Assembly (NCBI GenBank): GCA_017309115.1
Contig: JAFLEF010000022.1
Location: 1 to 64,000 of the forward strand
DNA: 64,000 nucleotides
Direction: 5' to 3'
DNA from: Verrucomicrobiota bacterium
Lineage (GTDB): Bacteria > Verrucomicrobiota > Verrucomicrobiia > Limisphaerales > UBA9464
The position numbers and the translations under genes are program-made. The notes under the pieces are model-generated. The model worked only from the letters and a program-made list of their open reading frames with translations, did not search any database and had not been told where the DNA came from. Below, one piece after another: positions 55,315-64,000 of this stretch (position 1 is its first letter; each line of letters opens with the position of its first letter).

Positions 55315-55785
55315 TCAAACCCGGGCGGAAAAGGCCAGTTGTTGCAGGGCGGCGGCGGGAAGGGCGCCGGAGCGCCGGTTCATCTCCTGACCGTTGCGGA
55401 TCACGACGAAAGTAGGGATCGAGGCAATCCGGAACGTTTGGGCGATCCGCGGAAACTCTTCGGTATTGAGTTTCACCACCAGCAAACGGCCGGCGGTGGC
55501 ACTGGCGAAACGTTCCACCTCGGGAGCCACGCTGCGGCAGGGCCCGCACCACGGCGCCCAGAAGTCCACCAGCACCGGCAGCGGTGACGACTGGGTCAGG
55601 GCCGTCCAGGCGGCTTCGTCCCGGGGTTCCACGGGTTGTCCGGGACCACCCGTAGGCGCGAGGGCGTGCTGGCACTGACCACAACGGAACGGTTGGCCAA
55701 GTTGGGAATAGCGGAGCCGGTTGGTCTGACCGCAGGCGGGGCAGGGCAGGTGGACCCCGCGTTCGTCGGCTGAGAGGGCGCTCAT
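55315..55785 (-). CDS. trxC: Thioredoxin 2-type protein with zinc ribbon
   Basis: A 156-residue cytoplasmic thioredoxin. The N-terminal zinc ribbon has CPAC and CGQC, as in thioredoxin 2. The active site is W79-C80-G-P-C83 (VDFWAPWCGPCRSVAPE), and the cis-Pro block is ASIPTFVVI. Known members reduce protein disulfides and are often linked to oxidative stress. The ATG at 55785 overlaps the stop of the upstream unknown gene by four bases (ATGA), so it is translationally coupled as the last gene of the redox operon. A much longer open frame upstream is the shadow of that gene. Confidence 0.92.
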   Translation of the reverse strand: MSALSADERGVHLPCPACGQTNRLRYSQLGQPFRCGQCQHALAPTGGPGQPVEPRDEAAWTALTQSSPLPVLVDFWAPWCGPCRSVAPEVERFASATAGRLLVVKLNTEEFPRIAQTFRIASIPTFVVIRNGQEMNRRSGALPAAALQQLAFSARV

Positions 55786-56210
55786 GGGTTGGGAGGAATG
55801 ACGGGTGCTTGGGGATGCCGCCGCCGCAGGTCGTCCCACAGGGCGCGGCCGGTCTGATCGGTCTCGGCGGGGGTGAATCCAGACTGATGAATCAGCTCGG
55901 GCAAGGTCAGCGCATCCTCGACCACGGGGGTTCCGGTCAGGGCGGCCGCACAGGTCATCGCTGCGGCGCTGCTGTCGAACTGGGCGCAATGGCGACGGAC
56001 GGATTCCGGCAACGCGAGGAACAAATAGTAGTGCAGCCAGGTCCCGCGGCGGGTCAGGACGAACGAGCAGTTGCGGGCCTGGGGATCGTGCGGGGCAATA
56101 CCGTCCTGAACCCACATGTACGGCCCACGGCCGGCGGCATTTCCGGTGAGTTGACCCAACTCCAGCAATTGGAAGTCGCGATAGTCGTTGGTCAGCGTGC
56201 GGGCATTCAT
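55782..56210 (-). CDS. Hypothetical protein in redox operon
   Basis: A 142-residue cytoplasmic protein I do not recognise. It starts MNARTLTNDYRDFQLLELGQ, with no signal peptide, followed by a beta-like part (GPYMWVQDG, CSFVLTRRGTWLHYYLFLAL) and a helical end. Its ATG overlaps the upstream reductase stop (ATGA), and its own stop overlaps the thioredoxin start, so it is tightly coupled in the operon. A role in sulfur or disulfide chemistry is inferred from location. It has several Cys residues but no CxxC pair. Confidence 0.7.
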   Translation of the reverse strand: MNARTLTNDYRDFQLLELGQLTGNAAGRGPYMWVQDGIAPHDPQARNCSFVLTRRGTWLHYYLFLALPESVRRHCAQFDSSAAAMTCAAALTGTPVVEDALTLPELIHQSGFTPAETDQTGRALWDDLRRRHPQAPVIPPNP

Positions 56211-57904
56211 GCGGCGGCAACCGTCGGCAGCAAACCCGCGTCGGTGACCGTTTTCCAGGTCAGATACGCGCCGGACAGGTTGGCAACCCGATACCCGTGT
56301 TGCTGCAGGACTTGGCAGGCGTAGTAGGACCGTTGGCCGGAGGCGCAGTACACGACCCAATCCCGAGACGGATCCAGTTGAGCGAAGTGTTCCCGCAGTT
56401 CAGGGAGGGGAATGTGAACCGATCCCGGCACGGCGCCCCGGGCGCGTTCTTCGGGGGAGCGGACATCCAGCAACCCCACACCCGCAGCCAGTCGCGCGGG
56501 CAGTTCGTGCCATTGGACGACGGCGACGCGATGTTCCTGCAGGTTTTGGGCGGCCATCCCGATGAGATTCACCGGATCCTTCGCGGAGCTAAAGGACGGC
56601 GCATAGGCCAGTTCGAGTTCAGCCAGATCATCAACGGTCAGTCCGGCCTGCAGAGCCGTGGCGAGAACGTCGATGCGCTTGTCGACGCCGGCGGGACCGA
56701 CGCCTTGCGCGCCTAGCAGACGTCCCGTGTCCGGATCGAAATGAATCTTGAGCGTCATTCGTTCCGCGCCGGGGAAGTATCCGGCATGGGAACCAGAGTA
56801 AATCTGGACGGATTGGTGGGCTCGGCCGACGCGCTGCAGGGCGCGTTCGTTGGCGCCAGTGCACGCGGCGGTCAGGGAAAATAGCCGAAGGATGGCGGTG
56901 CCCCAGGTACCTCGATAGGAATCCACCCGGCCGAAGATGGAATCGGCGGCGAGGCGTCCCTGACGATTGGCCGGGCCGGCGAGCGGAATGAGCGCCAGCT
57001 GGTCCGTCACCGGATCCTGGACTTCCACGGCATCGCCAACGGCCCAGATATGCGGGTCGCTGGTGCGCATGTGGGCATCGACGGCGATGCCGCCGGTAGT
57101 TCCGAGACGAAGACCGGCGGCGCGCGCCAGCGGAACGTCCGGACGCACGCCCAGACCGAGAATCACCAGGTCGGCGGGGAGACGTTGACCGCCCTTCAGG
57201 ACGACCATCGAGGCTCGGGCCTCCGACTCGCTGGCGGGCGCTTCAAACGCCGCCACTCCGTTGTTCAAATGCAGGCTGACTCCCTGTTGTTTCAGCTCCG
57301 CTTGAAGTAGGGCGGCCAACTCCGGGTCGAGCGGCGCCATGATTTGGGCCTGCGCTTCGACCACGGTTACGGCCAGACCGCGCCGGTGCAATTGCTCGGC
57401 CATTTCCAGTCCGATGTAGCCGCCACCGACCACCACGGCCCGGCGGACTTTGGGGTCCTGGAGCCACGTTTGAATTTGGTCGGCGTCGCCCAGGTTCCGG
57501 ACGACAAAGTGGCCGGCTCGGTCAATGCCGGGAATGGGTGGCCGCAGCGGGGCGGCGCCGGTGGCGAGGATGAGGGAGTCGTAGCGCTCGGTGAACGTGT
57601 CGCCGGTGGCGAGTTGGCGAACGACGATCTCCTGCCGGTCGGGATGAACGGACACCACTTCGTGGCGCGGGCGGACATCCAGATTGAAGCGGGCGTGGAG
57701 GCTGGCGGGAGTTTGAACCACCAGATTTTCCCGTTCCTCGATTTCGCCGCCGACGAAGTAGGGCAGACCACAATTGGCGAAGGAGACATCCGGTCCGCGC
57801 TCGAACACGACGATCTCGGCTGTTTCGGAGAGGCGCCGGGCGCGAGCGGCGGCACTGGCGCCACCGGCCACGCCACCCACGATCAAGAGTCGGTGCGGTT
57901 TCAT
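56207..57904 (-). CDS. CoA-disulfide-reductase-type flavoprotein with C-terminal rhodanese domain
   Basis: A 565-residue NAD(P)H:disulfide/persulfide reductase. The FAD site is LLIVGGVAGGASAAARARRL, redox-active C45 lies in SFANCGLPYFVGG, the NAD(P)H site is AVVVGGGYIGLEMAEQL and the second FAD contact is IWAVGDAVEV. The C-terminal rhodanese domain (about 465-560) has its active Cys at C520 (VYCASGQRS). The layout is that of CoADR-RHD enzymes, which reduce CoA-disulfides, CoA-persulfides or polysulfide. The ATG lies 18 bases after the DUF2892 stop, and the stop overlaps the next gene, so it is the centre of a four-gene operon. Confidence 0.92.
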   Translation of the reverse strand: MKPHRLLIVGGVAGGASAAARARRLSETAEIVVFERGPDVSFANCGLPYFVGGEIEERENLVVQTPASLHARFNLDVRPRHEVVSVHPDRQEIVVRQLATGDTFTERYDSLILATGAAPLRPPIPGIDRAGHFVVRNLGDADQIQTWLQDPKVRRAVVVGGGYIGLEMAEQLHRRGLAVTVVEAQAQIMAPLDPELAALLQAELKQQGVSLHLNNGVAAFEAPASESEARASMVVLKGGQRLPADLVILGLGVRPDVPLARAAGLRLGTTGGIAVDAHMRTSDPHIWAVGDAVEVQDPVTDQLALIPLAGPANRQGRLAADSIFGRVDSYRGTWGTAILRLFSLTAACTGANERALQRVGRAHQSVQIYSGSHAGYFPGAERMTLKIHFDPDTGRLLGAQGVGPAGVDKRIDVLATALQAGLTVDDLAELELAYAPSFSSAKDPVNLIGMAAQNLQEHRVAVVQWHELPARLAAGVGLLDVRSPEERARGAVPGSVHIPLPELREHFAQLDPSRDWVVYCASGQRSYYACQVLQQHGYRVANLSGAYLTWKTVTDAGLLPTVAAA

Positions 57905-58711: not shown

Positions 58712-61700
58712 ATGGACCGTGGCGCCGAGGCGGACCGAAGAACAAGCCGCGAATCCACCGTGAAATTTGACAAAACGACAACCAACAGGTTGGGAACCGG
58801 TGACGTTTCCCCTTCCGCGACGGCTTCGTTTCCGGCAGGCTTGGCAGCCGTGGATTCCGCTTTGGCTGCCCACTCGGGTCGGGCCGCCGCCAACGGGCAT
58901 TTGTCCGTCGGCGGCCGCTTAAACGTGCCCCAATCTCTCGCGCTTTACCGGTCGATGTTCATGGCCCGGATGGTGGACCGGGTGGAGATGGAACTGGTCA
59001 ATCGCGGCGAGGCCTTCTTTCACGTCGGCGGCGCCGGTCATGAAGCTTCGGCCGTGCTGCAACACTTCCTGCGGCCGGATGACTGGCTGCATCTGCACTA
59101 CCGGGACAAGGCGCTCATGCTCGCCCGGGGCATTCCGCCCGAGCAGTTTTTCCACAGCTTGATTTGTACCGCGGCGTCCCACTCGGCGGGCCGCCAGATG
59201 AGCGCGCATCTGAGCGCTCCCGAGCTGCACATCCTCAGCCTCGTCGGTCCCGTGGGGAACAACGCCCTCCAGGCGGTGGGCGTGGCGCATGAACTGCGAA
59301 GCCAGTCCCCGGAATCCACGTCGGTGGTGGTTTGCGCAGTGGGCGATGGGACGAGTCAGCAGGGCGAATTTCTGGAAGCGATAGCCGAAGCGGTGCGAGC
59401 CCGGCTGCCGGTGTTGTTTTGGATTGAGGACAATCGCCTGGCCATCTCCACCAGCACGGCAGGACGCACGTTTTACGATTTGCCGGACGGGGCGGCGACG
59501 GAGTTCTACGGGCTGCCCATCCACCGGCTGGATGGTCGCGAAGCCCTGGAGTGCGAACGTCAGTTGGCGCCGGTGATGCGCGGACTGCGCGAAGGGAAGG
59601 GGCCGGCCTTGGTGGTGTTCGAGGTGGATCGACTGACCCATCACACCAACGCCGACGACGAACGGATCTATCGGGGCGAATCGGAACTCAAACGCGTCCG
59701 CGGCACGAGCGATCCGGTCGAGATTTTAGCGGCCCAATTGCGCGAGGCGGGTGTCGCTGAGAGCGTATTGCGGGACTTGCACCAGGCGGTGGAGCAGGAG
59801 GTTCGCGCCGCGGCCGACCGTGCCCTGGCGGCCCCCAATCCGGAGTCCAATCGGGAGGCGCGGATGCCGCTGCCGCCGGGACTGGCGGAGCTCGCCGAAC
59901 ATCGAGGAAGTTCCGAAGGCCCCCGCTACACGATGCTAGAGGCGCTGCGGGAAACCTTGCGGAGCTGGCTGGAGGCGGAATCGCGGGTGAGTTTGTTTGG
60001 TCAGGATTTGGAGGATCCCAAGGGGGATGTGTTTGGGCTGACGCGTGGCCTGTCGACTGCCTTCCCGGGTCGGGTGACGAATTCCCCGCTGGCGGAGAGC
60101 ACCATTGCCGGCGTGGGCATCGGTCGGGCCCTGGCGGGAGGTCGGCCGGTCTCTTGTTTGCAGTTCGCCGACTTTCTGCCCATCGCGTTCAACCAGATTG
60201 CCAGTGAACTGGGATCGCTGGGATGGCGCACGGACGGCGGATGGAAGGCCCCGGTGATTCTGCTGGCGCCGTGCGGTGGGTATCGGCCGGGACTGGGACC
60301 GTTCCACGCGCAAACGTTTGAAAGTCTGCTGACGCATGTTCCGGGTATCGACGTGGTCATGCCCAGCACCGCGGGCGACGCGGCGGGATTGCTCAACGCC
60401 GCCTTTCGCAGTCAGCGACCCACGGTGTTCCTGTATCCGAAGGTGTGCTTGAACGACCCGGCCGTGGGCACCAGCCGGGATGTCGCCGCCCATTGGGTTT
60501 TGCCGGGCAAGGCCCGTTGGATCACCCGGGGCGAGGCGCTGACCCTGGTGACGTGGGGCGGCACCGTTCCGCTGTGCCAGCGCGTGGTCACCGCGTTGCA
60601 GAGCGTCGGAGTCGCGGTGGATTTCCTGGATCTGCGTTCGCTGAGCCCGTGGGATTCCGAGGCGGTTTGTTCCAGCGTGGGCAAGACGGGTCGGTTGCTG
60701 GTGGTGCACGAGGACAATCTGACCTGCGGGTTTGGCGCCGAGATTCTCGCGACCGTGGCGGAACGAGTGTCCACTCCCGTTCGCGCCCGGCGAGTCACCC
60801 GGCCGGATACGTATGTGCCGTGCAACTACGTGAACCAGTTGGACGTGTTGCCGAGCTTCCGTCGGATTTTGGACACCGCCGCTGAGTTGTGTGGCGTTGA
60901 CGTCAGTTGGCCCGAGGAAGCCGCCGCCGATGCGAGTGTGTTCGTATTGGAAGCCGTGGGCTCGAGTCCGGCCGACCAATCCGTGGCGGTGGTCGAATGG
61001 AAGGTGGCCGAAGGGGATCGCATTCAGGCGGGTGATCTGATTGCCGACTGCGAGGCGGACAAGGCGACGTTCGAGTTGCGTGCTCCGGTGGGCGGCGTGA
61101 TTCGGGATCTGAGAGCGCCGGATGAAAAGGTCGCGGTGGGAACGCCTCTGGCCCGCATCCTCACCAATCGGGCGGCGCCGGTCTTGCCGAAGCGCATTCC
61201 CGTCGAGACCAAGCCGGTGCTCAAGGCCCGGACGCCTGAACGAACTGGTCTCCGCGCTCCGTTCGTTCAAGCCAATCCCATTCGCAGTCGGGAAGGTCGG
61301 GCGGTGGTGGCGCTGTCTTCCATTACGGCGGCGCCGGCCGGTCGGGTGGTCACCAATGAGGAGTTGGTGAAGCGCTTCGCCGGACGGTCCAGTCACGACA
61401 TTCTGCAGCGCACGGGAATCGAATCCCGACGACTGCTGGCGCCCGGGGAATCGGCGCTCACGCTGGCCGCGAAGGCCGCCCGCGCGGCGCTCAAGTCGTC
61501 CGGGCTCGCCCTGGCGGATCTTGACGCGATCCTGGTCAGCACCAGCTCACCGTTGTCGATCAGCCCGAGTCTGGCGTGTCTGCTGCATCATGAGTTGAGT
61601 CAGGACGGTCCCACTCGGGATCTGCCGGCCAGCGACATCCTGGCGGCCTGCACCGGATACTTGTACGCCTTGCAGTCGGCCTTCGACTTCTGCCGCTCGG

Positions 61701-62272
61701 AACCGGACGCGAACATCCTGGTGGTGACGGCCGAAGCGATGAGCACGTTCACCAATCACGACGACTTCGACACGGCGATCGTGTTTGCCGATGCCGCCAC
61801 GGCGACCCTGGTGCATGGGCCCGAGTCACCGCACTTCCACCAAAGCCGCGCTTGGCTGCATCGTCCGGTGTTGAGCGCCCGAGGCGAGGACGGAACGATC
61901 CTGCATCACGGCCGGCGGGGTGATCCCAACGTGAACATGGACGGCCTGAAAGTCTTCCCGATGGCCGTTCGACAGTTGATTGCGTTGCTGAAACAAGCCT
62001 GTGCCGAGAGCGAGCTGTCGGTGGACGGACTCGATTACATCGTTCCGCATCAGGCCAACGGCCGCATCCTGGAAGCGGTCGATCAACGTCTGAAGCTACC
62101 CAAGGGCCGCCTTCTGAATCGGGTGAAGCACAGCGGCAACACCAGCAGCAGCTCCATTCCGCTGGTCTTGGCCGAGTTGCTGGCGGAGACGCCAAAGCCC
62201 AGCGGCACCGCCGGCCTGTGCGCCTTCGGCGGCGGCTTCACCTTCGGCGCGGCGGTGATGGAGTTTACCTGA
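58712..62272 (+). CDS. 2-oxoacid dehydrogenase E1 alpha-beta / lipoyl / ketoacyl-ACP synthase III fusion
   Basis: A 1186-residue four-part enzyme. Residues 64-400 are the thiamine-diphosphate E1 alpha (GDG at 211-213, EDNRLAIS as the second half of the motif, HLHYRDKALMLARG). Residues 405-725 are E1 beta (LFGQDLEDPKGDVFG, APCGGYRPGLGPFHAQTFE, LRSLSPWD). Residues 741-820 are a lipoyl domain with acceptor K784 in EADKATFE. Residues about 863-1186 are a ketoacyl-ACP synthase III with the full triad C980 (AACTGYLYAL), H1113 (PHQANGR) and N1143 (SGNTSSSSIP). There is no E2 catalytic domain. The first 60 residues are low-complexity; a GTG at 58760 is an alternative start. Lipoyl-borne acyl transfer to the synthase is inference. 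Confidence 0.93.
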   Translation: MDRGAEADRRTSRESTVKFDKTTTNRLGTGDVSPSATASFPAGLAAVDSALAAHSGRAAANGHLSVGGRLNVPQSLALYRSMFMARMVDRVEMELVNRGEAFFHVGGAGHEASAVLQHFLRPDDWLHLHYRDKALMLARGIPPEQFFHSLICTAASHSAGRQMSAHLSAPELHILSLVGPVGNNALQAVGVAHELRSQSPESTSVVVCAVGDGTSQQGEFLEAIAEAVRARLPVLFWIEDNRLAISTSTAGRTFYDLPDGAATEFYGLPIHRLDGREALECERQLAPVMRGLREGKGPALVVFEVDRLTHHTNADDERIYRGESELKRVRGTSDPVEILAAQLREAGVAESVLRDLHQAVEQEVRAAADRALAAPNPESNREARMPLPPGLAELAEHRGSSEGPRYTMLEALRETLRSWLEAESRVSLFGQDLEDPKGDVFGLTRGLSTAFPGRVTNSPLAESTIAGVGIGRALAGGRPVSCLQFADFLPIAFNQIASELGSLGWRTDGGWKAPVILLAPCGGYRPGLGPFHAQTFESLLTHVPGIDVVMPSTAGDAAGLLNAAFRSQRPTVFLYPKVCLNDPAVGTSRDVAAHWVLPGKARWITRGEALTLVTWGGTVPLCQRVVTALQSVGVAVDFLDLRSLSPWDSEAVCSSVGKTGRLLVVHEDNLTCGFGAEILATVAERVSTPVRARRVTRPDTYVPCNYVNQLDVLPSFRRILDTAAELCGVDVSWPEEAAADASVFVLEAVGSSPADQSVAVVEWKVAEGDRIQAGDLIADCEADKATFELRAPVGGVIRDLRAPDEKVAVGTPLARILTNRAAPVLPKRIPVETKPVLKARTPERTGLRAPFVQANPIRSREGRAVVALSSITAAPAGRVVTNEELVKRFAGRSSHDILQRTGIESRRLLAPGESALTLAAKAARAALKSSGLALADLDAILVSTSSPLSISPSLACLLHHELSQDGPTRDLPASDILAACTGYLYALQSAFDFCRSEPDANILVVTAEAMSTFTNHDDFDTAIVFADAATATLVHGPESPHFHQSRAWLHRPVLSARGEDGTILHHGRRGDPNVNMDGLKVFPMAVRQLIALLKQACAESELSVDGLDYIVPHQANGRILEAVDQRLKLPKGRLLNRVKHSGNTSSSSIPLVLAELLAETPKPSGTAGLCAFGGGFTFGAAVMEFT

Positions 62273-62280
62273 GTCATTCG

Positions 62281-63186
62281 ATGAGGCCCCAGAGACCCAA
62301 GCTGAGATCATCCGAGCATGACCTGCTTGGAGCCGCCAAGGCTGGGAGCCTCAAAGAACTTCAGCGTGCATTGGCTCGGGGAGCAGCGGTGGATGCAACC
62401 GACAGGGACAAAGCTACCCCGCTGGTTCATGCCAGCGCCGGAGGACATCTGGCGCTGGTCCGACTACTCTTGGAAAGAGGCGCTCAAGCAAATCACAAGT
62501 GTCTTGGGGGAAACACCGCGCTGAGTTTTGCCGCCTACAACGGCCATGAGGAAGTTGTTCGCGAGTTGCTGGAAGCGGGCGCGCAAGTGAATGCCACCAT
62601 CATGACTCCGGCGGGAAATGTGCCGGTGCTGGTTTACGCGGCTGCGAAAGGCTACCGAGGAGTCGTCGAACTGTTCCTGAAGCACGGTGCCACATTGAAC
62701 CCAAAGAAGGCAGAAGTACTGCCGCTGCAGATGACGGCAGAGACAACAAATATGGAGATGGTAAGCTACCTCTTGTCGGCGGGGGCTGATGTGAACGCCC
62801 GCCAAGATCTGTGTGGCTATACCTCCCTCATAAAGGCCGCGAGCAAGTCAACTGTAGAGATGGTTCGCCTGCTCATTGAGGCTGGGGCAGATGTGGATGC
62901 ACGGGACAAAATCGGCATGACGGCGTTGATGATCGCAGCGCGGCGCGGTGATCAGGAGATCGTCAAGGAGTTATTGGCTTCCGGCGCTGACGCCCGGATC
63001 GCCTACGAAGATCCGAATGGCAAACGGACCGCCTTAGACATGGCTCGGGAGTGTGATCGTTCTAAAGTCGCTAGGCTCCTGGAGAAATGGCAGGAAGTGA
63101 CACCCCGTCAGACACCTGTGGCGGCACGAGCGTCAGTTGTGGTCGCACAACCTGGAGCAGGACGTGGACGACGGACTGGTGTTTGA
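62281..63186 (+). CDS. Ankyrin-repeat protein
   Basis: A 301-residue soluble protein made of seven or eight ankyrin repeats (TPLVHASAGGHLALVRLLLE, TALSFAAYNGHEEVVRELLE, TSLIKAASKSTVEMVRLLIE, TALMIAARRGDQEIVKELLA). The ATG at 62281 lies eight bases after the fusion gene's stop, so it may be co-transcribed with it. No other domain is present. Partner unknown. The C-terminal 35 residues are Ala/Val/Arg-rich, unlike the repeats, and a second open frame just below suggests a possible frameshift there. Confidence 0.9.
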   Translation: MRPQRPKLRSSEHDLLGAAKAGSLKELQRALARGAAVDATDRDKATPLVHASAGGHLALVRLLLERGAQANHKCLGGNTALSFAAYNGHEEVVRELLEAGAQVNATIMTPAGNVPVLVYAAAKGYRGVVELFLKHGATLNPKKAEVLPLQMTAETTNMEMVSYLLSAGADVNARQDLCGYTSLIKAASKSTVEMVRLLIEAGADVDARDKIGMTALMIAARRGDQEIVKELLASGADARIAYEDPNGKRTALDMARECDRSKVARLLEKWQEVTPRQTPVAARASVVVAQPGAGRGRRTGV

Positions 63187-63398: not shown

Positions 63399-64000
63399 AT
63401 GGCGCGAATACCTGGCAATACTGACTTCGAGTTCGAGTTGGCCGTTAAAGCCGGCAATACGAAACGAATACGAACATTAGTACGTCATAAAGCGCGCCCG
63501 CCCACGCTCTTGATGCTATATGCGTTGCTCAACAATCACCCGGAGTTGCTTCCCATCCTCAAGGAAGCCGGCTGTGATCCCAACGACAAAGATGGGTTCT
63601 CCATGACAGCTCTGGGCTGCGCCATGGATCGCTATCCCATCGCTTTGGTTGAGCAGCTCCTTGATCTCGGAGCTGATCCTAATCAAGAGGCAACTCAGCT
63701 GCTGCCGCTGGTTACGGCAGCAGACGACGGCGAACTGGAGTTGCTTGAGGTTCTGCTGAAGGCGGGCGCCGATCCCAATAAGGCCCAGTGGAACGGGCTG
63801 CGTCCAATCCAGTCAGCCGCCATGCTGGGTTATCCTAAAGCACTCCGAAGACTCATTGAAGCGGGTGCCGATCCCTTGCTGTCCGGTCCAGCTGGCAAAG
63901 ACGTTTTCTACTTCGCTGCTCAGTCAAAGAATCCAGAGGTCATGGCGATTCTCGAGCCGTACCAGGCCAAGGTCGCCAAACCGAAGAAGCGACCCAGCTC
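63399..64000 (+). CDS. Ankyrin-repeat protein, cut by the window end
   Basis: At least 200 residues from an ATG at 63399 with GGGGAGG about 30 bases upstream, and no stop before the window end. It begins MARIPGNTDFEFELAVKAGN and has five or so ankyrin repeats (FSMTALGCAMDRYPIALVEQ, LLDLGADPNQEA, LLKAGADPNKAQWNGLRPIQ, RLIEAGADPLLSGP), followed by a lysine-rich end of the visible part (AKVAKPKKRPSS). It is probably a paralogue of the ankyrin gene upstream. Partner and role are unknown. Confidence 0.85.
   Translation, partial: MARIPGNTDFEFELAVKAGNTKRIRTLVRHKARPPTLLMLYALLNNHPELLPILKEAGCDPNDKDGFSMTALGCAMDRYPIALVEQLLDLGADPNQEATQLLPLVTAADDGELELLEVLLKAGADPNKAQWNGLRPIQSAAMLGYPKALRRLIEAGADPLLSGPAGKDVFYFAAQSKNPEVMAILEPYQAKVAKPKKRPS

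Follow-up and report, generated by a model that had tools for sequence, protein, structure and literature searches.

A four-part chain in one reading frame

The window, a stretch of 64,000 nucleotides at positions 1 to 64,000 of contig JAFLEF010000022.1 from a Verrucomicrobiota bacterium, contains at 58712-62272 on the forward strand a single stop-free open reading frame of 1186 amino acids. All features below lie on the same strand. Six Pfam families, each scoring above its gathering cut-off, divide the chain into an E1 alpha part, an E1 beta part, a lipoyl domain and a FabH-like ketoacyl-ACP synthase III (KAS III). E1 alpha (E1_dh, residues 79-378; 58946-59845) carries the GDG..N thiamine diphosphate (ThDP) motif at 211-241, the H129-Y130-R131 triplet and the loop histidine H311, and E1 beta (Transket_pyr 407-577 and Transketolase_C 599-710; 59930-60841) carries E462 and H532. 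The lipoyl domain spans about residues 743-817 (60938-61162; Biotin_lipoyl 758-816), with the lipoyl lysine K784 at 61061-61063. A variable linker rich in Ala, Pro and Arg (residues 818-866; 61163-61309) leads to KAS III (residues 867-1186; 61310-62269; ACP_syn_III 975-1040 and ACP_syn_III_C 1097-1184), which is identified by Pfam, NCBIfam and Foldseek matches to FabH and by its triad C980 (61649-61651), H1113 (62048-62050) and N1143 (62138-62140).

The start codon is ambiguous. Residues 1-70 are unconserved and have low confidence in the AlphaFold2 model of the chain (mean pLDDT 79.2, pTM 0.66), and the true start may be a GTG at codon 17 (58760). In the same model, pLDDT falls below 50 at linker residues 841-862.

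A Pfam search at E 0.001 detected neither an E2 core (2-oxoacid_dh, PF00198) nor an E3_binding domain in the chain, and KAS III occupies the position that the E2 core holds in a 2-oxoacid dehydrogenase complex. A preliminary description of this locus had claimed the four-part order, the missing E2 core, a lipoyl-to-KAS linker of about 45 residues, and K784, C980, H1113, N1143 and the GDG at 211-213. The order and the absence of the E2 core are borne out, every residue sits in the translation where it had been placed, and the linker measures 49 residues here; over the 60 copies compared, its length ranges from 39 to 77 with a median of 46.

Catalytic residues are conserved across copies

To assess conservation, we used 60 distinct full-length copies of the four-part chain from three phyla. 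None of the 60 varies at the lipoyl lysine K784, at the three triad positions of KAS III or at H311 and H532, the histidines of E1. E1 alpha also retains H129, Y130, R131, G211 and N241 in every copy, as E1 beta does E462; D212 is kept in 56 (Glu in 4) and G213 in 53 (Ser in 7). The linker has a consensus of 0.33, versus 0.62-0.72 in E1 alpha, E1 beta, the lipoyl domain and KAS III.

These patterns point to a ThDP-dependent E1 of the 2-oxoacid dehydrogenase type, with probable catalytic histidines in the E1 alpha loop and in E1 beta. They likewise suggest a lipoyl domain with a modifiable lysine, whose lipoylation is predicted; LipA is present in the window genome and in 36/36 other four-part genomes. 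The C-terminal part, judged by Pfam, Foldseek and the Cys-His-Asn triad in 60/60 copies, has the thiolase fold of a KAS III.

The CoA-adenine clamp is lost from the fused KAS III

When E. coli CoA complexes are superposed on Y. pestis FabH, the adenine is stacked between Trp32 and Arg151, as described in the part of the source available (PMC4606726). This clamp is absent from 60/60 fused KAS III domains, whereas 21/21 distinct FabH genes that stand alone, taken from these genomes and their relatives, have it. In the window the equivalents are D896 (61397-61399) for W32 and F1019 (61766-61768) for R151. Across the 60 copies, the W32 equivalent is D in 48, A in 6, E in 4 and K in 2, and the R151 equivalent is F in 43, P in 6, Y in 4, Q in 4, A in 2 and T in 1. 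The stand-alone alignment has W and R, respectively, in 22/22 rows (21 distinct genes), and the solved FabHs have both in 5/5 with an alignment displayed. C112, H244, N274 and R249 (E. coli FabH numbering) are unchanged in all 60 fused and all 22 stand-alone rows. Thus, by alignment, the fused domain appears to lack the acyl-CoA donor site of FabH as defined by the W32/R151 clamp; the comparison set comprises stand-alone and solved FabHs, with KAS III enzymes known to use other donors lying outside it, so the loss is uncalibrated against those. A literature search for CoA-site mutants of mtFabH found no relevant paper.

One residue counts against a CoA-free reading: R36, which touches the pantetheine arm of CoA, is retained in 56/60 fused domains. 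The ACP docking surface, which we take to be formed by R249, K214 and K256, gives a mixed picture, with R at the R249 equivalent in 60/60, but K or R at the K214 equivalent in only 10/60 and at the K256 equivalent in 16/60. Position 87, presumably a residue of the acyl pocket (F87 in FabH), is Ser or Thr in 60/60; it is Thr in M. tuberculosis FabH and Phe in B. subtilis FabHA. Ser or Thr at this position seems to give no pointer toward a short branched primer.

Distribution and history of the chain

The chain is found in Verrucomicrobiota, in Thermoleophilia (Actinomycetota) and in Spirochaetales. The preliminary description had suggested a domain search over Verrucomicrobiota, and the same architecture was recovered: 35/387 genomes of the phylum, the window genome included, have it as a single match, and two more have it split or cut by contig ends. 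In the related-genome set it occurs in 25/59 genomes, again with the window genome included, as a single match from E1 to KAS III in 23 and as pieces ending at contig ends in two (G023 and G026). Its presence is patchy in the window's family (24/36 genomes, several of them incomplete). Two matches that first showed TGA stops (L097 and L098) are each an uninterrupted frame of 1136 amino acids with all four parts.

Other Verrucomicrobiota contain a sister single chain, E1 alpha-E1 beta-lipoyl-E2, at 11/11 loci fetched from the 27 such matches in the 387-genome scan; Pfam was run on 2 of these 11, and 8 of the 11 entered the E1 tree. An HxxxNG motif is present in the E2-type domain of all 11. In the E1 tree, the 8 sister chains and a polyketide synthase-linked E1 form the sister group of the KAS III-fused E1s (SH-aLRT 99), and the KAS III-bearing E1s form one group (28/28 rows picked from the 60; SH-aLRT 100). 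For the same 28, the E1 and KAS III trees have 17 and 12 starred splits, of which 7 are common and 0 conflict, which suggests a congruent history of the two parts with no supported tree conflict. The fused KAS III domains lie on a branch of their own, separate from the sampled stand-alone genes.

Clustering the gene neighbours of the window and 52 further loci (53 sources) detected no conserved operon around the chain in Verrucomicrobiota, and the context is therefore silent on the product. The four conserved Actinomycetota neighbours scanned are two luciferase-like proteins, NAGPA and DUF302, which we read as shared synteny rather than a pathway. A related E1 (L123) adjoins a polyketide synthase that includes a lipoyl, an E2-type and an ACP domain.

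Other E1, E2 and E3 genes in the same genomes

The window genome, 95.3% complete, has a single E2 core (C13), which carries its own lipoyl and E3-binding domains. An E3 gene adjoins it (lipoamide_DH, 502.8 bits against a cut-off of 408.8), yet the four-part chain is without an E3-binding domain. An AceE-type E1 lies at C20, and a protein search of this genome for other E1 alpha/beta proteins gave nothing but a weak match of the transketolase type. We infer that the genome's E2 belongs to a pyruvate dehydrogenase, given its own lipoyl and E3-binding domains, the adjoining E3 and the AceE at C20. The neighbour of stand-alone FabH is one that we take to be plsX.

Beyond the window's family, every four-part genome tested (36/36) has an E2 core, as do 23/25 chain-carrying genomes of the related-genome set, so a route via free acyl-CoA exists in these cells. 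Two same-genus genomes, G001 (90% complete) and G002 (79%), have the chain without an E2 being found, both being incomplete. The idea that four-part genomes lack any E2 is thus rejected by the 36/36. So is the notion that these genomes as a rule have no E1 besides the chain, since 10 of the 16 four-part genomes checked for paralogues (G139 included) have another E1-like match at E 1e-12 and 6 do not.

A proposed CoA-free initiation mechanism and its alternatives

We propose, with a probability of roughly two in three, that the protein is a single-chain initiator of fatty-acid-type synthesis, in which a 2-oxoacid would be the source of the primer and the lipoyl arm would load C980 directly, free of CoA. 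The proposal draws on the domains, the active-site residues, the clamp loss, the lipoylation and E3 genes and the congruent history, from which we infer five steps. E1 alpha/beta would bind thiamine diphosphate and decarboxylate the 2-oxoacid, and would then reductively acylate the lipoyl group on K784. The lipoyl domain would swing on flexible linkers so that C980 takes the acyl group directly, a step that would replace the E2 core and CoA of the ordinary complex. KAS III would condense the acyl group with malonyl-ACP, giving a 3-oxoacyl-ACP that would pass to the cell's fatty acid synthase, and dihydrolipoyl dehydrogenase would reoxidise the lipoyl arm. Because KAS III and E1 are normally oligomeric, the lipoyl arm of a neighbouring chain could serve in place of the chain's own.

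The preliminary description had already suggested that lipoyl-lysine may hand its acyl group to C980 and so prime fatty acid or polyketide synthesis without free acyl-CoA. The contrast between clamp loss in the fused domains and its retention in stand-alone genes lends support to this suggestion. It is also backed by the invariant catalytic residues, by the E2-type domain that the sister chain has at the KAS III position, by the domain make-up of the window genome's lone E2 and by the dearth of other E1 alpha/beta matches there.

Given the rest of the mechanism, we regard a branched primer, with 2-oxoisovalerate yielding isobutyryl, as an even call. Among solved structures, E1 alpha is best matched by the Thermus branched-chain E1. 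For E1 beta, 1ik6, named a pyruvate dehydrogenase, scores 179 bits and the Thermus branched-chain protein 178. The chain is present in four genomes (G139, G093, G461 and G463) that we take, from inferred identities, to be Tichowtungia aerotolerans and three Pontiella species. The portions available of two sources give the major acids of Tichowtungia aerotolerans and Pontiella species as C18:0 plus at least one of i-C12:0, i-C14:0, i-C16:0 and i-C18:0 (PMC10880615; PMC7356697). A branched primer is plausible because genomes taken as four cultured Kiritimatiellota with even iso-fatty acids carry the chain. Of the genomes listed, none was recognised as Kiritimatiella glycovorans (i-C14:0), a possible counter-example.

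Instead of membrane fatty acids, the chain could start a signalling molecule or a polyketide-like product from a special primer, such as an aromatic one; we consider this somewhat unlikely. The patchy presence in the window's family would fit it, as would the polyketide synthase beside the related E1 and a Ser/Thr at position 87, which, on the presumed role of that residue, suggests a roomy acyl pocket. Against it, the Verrucomicrobiota neighbours are unconserved and the scanned Actinomycetota neighbours form no pathway.

It is unlikely that E1 uses pyruvate, so that acetoacetyl-ACP and ordinary straight-chain acids would form with acetyl-CoA bypassed at initiation. In NCBIfam, the E1 parts match models of pyruvate dehydrogenase, far under their cut-offs, and the best E1 beta match, 1ik6, points the same way, but E1 alpha is closest to the Thermus branched-chain E1, and straight-chain initiation is covered by a W32/R151 stand-alone FabH in all 21 genomes where one aligned.

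Could KAS III act simply as a substitute E2, moving acyl groups from the lipoyl arm to ACP or CoA with no condensation? Its place in the chain is that of the sister chain's E2-type domain, and KAS III enzymes have a known transacylase side activity. However, 60/60 copies keep the His and Asn with which the triad supports decarboxylation and which pure transfer should not require, and the clamp loss speaks against CoA as acceptor, which makes this quite doubtful.

Alternatively, the lipoyl arm may serve a separate E2 in trans, with the attached KAS III using the resulting free acyl-CoA and the fusion only raising local concentration. The E2 core at C13 and those in the other four-part genomes would make this feasible, but C13 has lipoyl and E3-binding domains of its own beside an E3, with an AceE-type E1 in the same genome; no E2 was found in the incomplete G001 and G002; and the CoA-adenine clamp is gone throughout, so that we judge the arrangement improbable. 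The preliminary description had named both a separate E2 and a chimera as possible objections: separate E2 cores do exist, in 36/36 four-part genomes outside the family, and the chimera is ruled out. An assembly chimera, a chance event or a decayed fusion has a negligible likelihood, since many genomes (25/59; 35/387) carry the same chain, it recurs in three phyla with the lipoyl lysine and KAS III triad invariant in 60 distinct full-length copies, and we found no point in favour.

Evolutionary reading and significance

A wider proposal, to which we give even odds as a whole, is that the E2 acyltransferase of a 2-oxoacid dehydrogenase was exchanged for a ketosynthase, making acyl-dihydrolipoyl a donor for C-C bond formation and the start CoA-free; the chain would be old in Verrucomicrobiota, would have reached Thermoleophilia and spirochaetes by transfer, and would supply the even iso-fatty acids of Kiritimatiellota. 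In textbook bacterial fatty acid initiation, a free short acyl-CoA is required. If lipoyl-to-ketosynthase transfer is true, a lipoyl thioester would be a direct substrate for a C-C bond, initiation would no longer depend on the CoA pool, and one enzyme could determine membrane branching in a set of bacteria that are mostly uncultured. Exchange at the E2 position would have turned a catabolic complex to biosynthesis through one domain swap. As a tool, this single gene should then enable a host that lacks BCKDH to make branched fatty acids.

Comparison with known systems

Among titles and abstract starts, with most subscription journals outside the search, we found no description of the four-part architecture or of lipoyl-to-ketosynthase transfer. 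Tetronate clusters have an E2-like acyltransferase and a KAS-type enzyme (AbmA4/AbmA1) in one pathway, at least in the passages available (PMC5819245). The likeness is that an acyltransferase of the 2-oxoacid dehydrogenase type shares a pathway with a ketoacyl-ACP synthase; in contrast to our chain, they are separate proteins acting at different steps, the E2-like protein acetylates the tetronate, and those passages mention no E1 (PMC5819245).

Stand-alone FabH shares the fold, the Cys-His-Asn triad and R249 with the fused KAS III, which is about 28-39% identical to the solved FabHs and the genes that stand alone. It differs in that the fused domain is joined to its donor system and has the W32, R151 and F87 equivalents replaced in 60/60.

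The sister E1 alpha-E1 beta-lipoyl-E2 chain has an identical order up to the lipoyl domain and a sister E1 group, but its C-terminal end is an E2-type domain where here it is KAS III.

In the canonical flow, as given in the available part of one account, a branched-chain 2-oxoacid dehydrogenase makes acyl-CoA, which FabH then uses (PMC10026030). The four-part chain resembles the combination of that complex and FabH in its ThDP-type E1 alpha/beta, its lipoyl arm and a KAS III whose primer would come from a 2-oxoacid. Unlike that combination, it is a single polypeptide without an E2 core or E3-binding domain and with KAS III attached. As KAS III is attached and has lost its CoA-adenine clamp, the chain appears to bypass the CoA thioester.

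Architecture and distribution of the four-part chain

The four-part gene at 58712-62272 (+) is a stop-free frame of 1186 residues, in which Pfam places E1_dh at residues 79-378, Transket_pyr at 407-577, Transketolase_C at 599-710, Biotin_lipoyl at 758-816 and ACP_syn_III in two halves at 975-1040 and 1097-1184. An AlphaFold2 model of the 1186-residue chain (mean pLDDT 79.2, pTM 0.66; low confidence at residues 1-68 and across linker residues 841-862) gave E1 beta chains and FabH structures as its top Foldseek matches. The positions assigned to K784, C980, H1113 and N1143 in the preliminary description all agree with the translation of the frame. Nearby, a pyridine nucleotide-disulphide oxidoreductase fused to a rhodanese domain (56207-57904 (-)) adjoins a thioredoxin with an N-terminal extension (55315-56220 (-)); 3' of the four-part gene lie two ORFs, 62218-63186 (+) and 63399-63998 (+), by eye putative ankyrin-repeat proteins.

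The four-part chain is real and old. Its proposed architecture is confirmed and widespread, with relatives in many genomes, and its active sites are conserved among 60 distinct aligned copies. With each species represented by one genome, a scan confirmed 91 relatives; among the 80 of them listed, 42 loci (43 with the window) hold an open frame of this family longer than 1050 aa and belong, per record titles, to Verrucomicrobiota, Thermoleophilia/Actinomycetota and Spirochaetales. Three titles look doubtful: L031 and L050, titled Bifidobacterium breve, share neighbours with Thermoleophilia-type loci, and L049, titled Akkermansia muciniphila (60% identity to the window protein), shares neighbours with L027 of Verrucomicrobiales.

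Among 59 close genomes, several of them incomplete, the chain was found in 25 (24/36 in the window's family, 1/23 in others), counting two in which contig ends cut it (G023 and G026). Phylum-wide, 64 of 387 genomes match it at E 1e-100: 35 as a single four-part chain, 2 split or cut by a contig end, and 27 in E1 or E1 plus lipoyl only. In the class of genome G139, 88 genomes at least 93% complete yielded a single match in 25 and a split or cut one in 2, with family counts of 12/12 (f54), 6/6 (f47), 4/4 (f49), 0/7 (f53) and 0/8 (f60). One of these 25, G466:C79:36379-39717, is reported with two in-frame TAA stops in the aligned stretch.

The 60 distinct full-length copies form 51 clusters at 90% identity. 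Invariant in all 60 are H129, Y130, R131, G211, N241 and H311 of E1 alpha, E462 and H532 of E1 beta, the lipoyl K784, and C980, H1113, N1143 and R1118 of KAS III. At residue 212, 56 copies have Asp and 4 have Glu; at residue 213, 53 have Gly and 7 have Ser.

Sister chains ending in an E2-type domain

We fetched 11 of the 27 phylum matches that are not four-part. By our own profiles, each of the 11 joins E1 alpha, E1 beta, lipoyl and E2-type domains in a single chain, and Pfam confirmed PF00198 in both of the two scanned. These chains (L164-L173 and L179) span 1009-1129 aa, with L166 and L167 longer if read from the first start, and all 11 carry the E2 motif HxxxNG instead of HxxxDG. At E 1e-100, KAS III-ending and E2-ending chains occur together in no genome of the 387, a pattern that phylogeny confounds.

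A tree was built from E1 alpha plus E1 beta for 57 rows: 28 four-part chains out of the 60, 8 E1-E2 chains out of the 11, and 21 others. In it the chains that bear KAS III group together (28/28, SH-aLRT 100), and their sister group comprises the E1-E2 chains and locus L123. For these 28 four-part chains, the E1 tree and the KAS III tree have 7 starred splits in common and 0 starred conflicts, so the two parts travel together; the tree method was quick and raised long-branch warnings, which permits no further reading.

L123 (G034:C48; 3-4193 (-) and 4197-6266 (-)) encodes an E1 alpha-E1 beta fusion, then a chain made up of a lipoyl domain, an E2-type domain (HRLIQG motif), ACP, ketosynthase and the start of a KR. 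The locus, truncated at the contig end, reads as a putative polyketide synthase whose loading module would be a 2-oxoacid dehydrogenase. At L125 (7563-9197 (+)) and L110 (1-1263 (-)), an E1 alpha-E1 beta fusion adjoins a lipoyl, E3_binding and PfkB-kinase chain, in which the sugar-kinase domain occupies the place of the E2 core; L111 has a similar E1.

Candidate primer and other routes to it

Four genomes carrying the chain (4/4) fit described Kiritimatiellota: G139 (one contig of 3,882,676 bp; 53.5% G+C in 17 kb fetched), G093 (4.4 Mb, about 10 contigs), G461 (7.4 Mb) and G463 (8.7 Mb) are putatively Tichowtungia aerotolerans (3.88 Mbp, 53.1%), Pontiella agarivorans (4.44 Mbp, 12 contigs), P. 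sulfatireligans (7.40) and P. desulfatans (8.66), respectively, by values in excerpts of PMC10880615. In cultured Kiritimatiellota the major acids include, besides C18:0, i-C12:0, i-C14:0, i-C16:0 or i-C18:0, according to excerpts of PMC7356697 and PMC10880615. Because genomes fitting these iso-fatty-acid makers carry the chain, 2-oxoisovalerate is a good first candidate substrate, at about even odds. Isobutyryl could instead come from other sources, such as ferredoxin-dependent oxidoreductases, and G139 has another E1-like gene.

LipA is encoded in the window genome (95.3% complete), as are an AceE-type E1 domain, a single E2 core that carries lipoyl and E3-binding domains of its own, a dihydrolipoyl dehydrogenase directly 3' of that core, and a stand-alone FabH whose gene is presumably next to plsX. 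A protein search of this genome found no other E1 alpha/beta beyond a weak transketolase-type match. Ordinary PDH and ordinary initiation are probably covered by these other genes, so the four-part chain would be an extra route. Two findings count against a strict reading in which these cells lack any other route to acyl-CoA: LipA and one or more E2 cores occur in all 36 other four-part genomes tested, and 10 of the 16 among them that were checked for paralogues have another E1-like match at E 1e-12 (none at that threshold in G093, G441, G090, G264, G215 and G378).

CoA site of the fused KAS III

Direct hand-over of the acyl group from lipoyl-lysine to the ketosynthase would best explain the four-part chain, with a probability of roughly two in three judging from sequence. 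The literature searched for it (titles and abstract starts) yielded no description of this architecture or of such a transfer.

In E. coli CoA complexes superposed on Y. pestis FabH, adenine is stacked between Trp32 and Arg151, and pantetheine is held by Arg36 and others (PMC4606726, in excerpt). Numbered by E. coli FabH (NC_000913), the 60 fused domains have D 48, A 6, E 4 and K 2 at position 32, and F 43, P 6, Y 4, Q 4, A 2 and T 1 at position 151. C112, H244, N274 and R249 are kept in 60/60. Since the triad and R249 are unchanged while W32 and R151 are replaced, the condensing machinery is retained and the adenine clamp is gone. Equivalents of K214 and K256, which we take with R249 to be ACP-docking residues, are basic in only 10/60 and 16/60, respectively. 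Against a non-CoA donor, R36, the pantetheine contact, remains in 56/60. W32 and R151 are both present in 5/5 solved FabHs aligned and in 22/22 rows for stand-alone FabH (21 distinct genes), drawn from the window genome and 20 relatives. By comparison with these enzymes, loss of the clamp beside a retained condensing machinery is the chief new evidence, though not proof, that the donor is something other than acyl-CoA.
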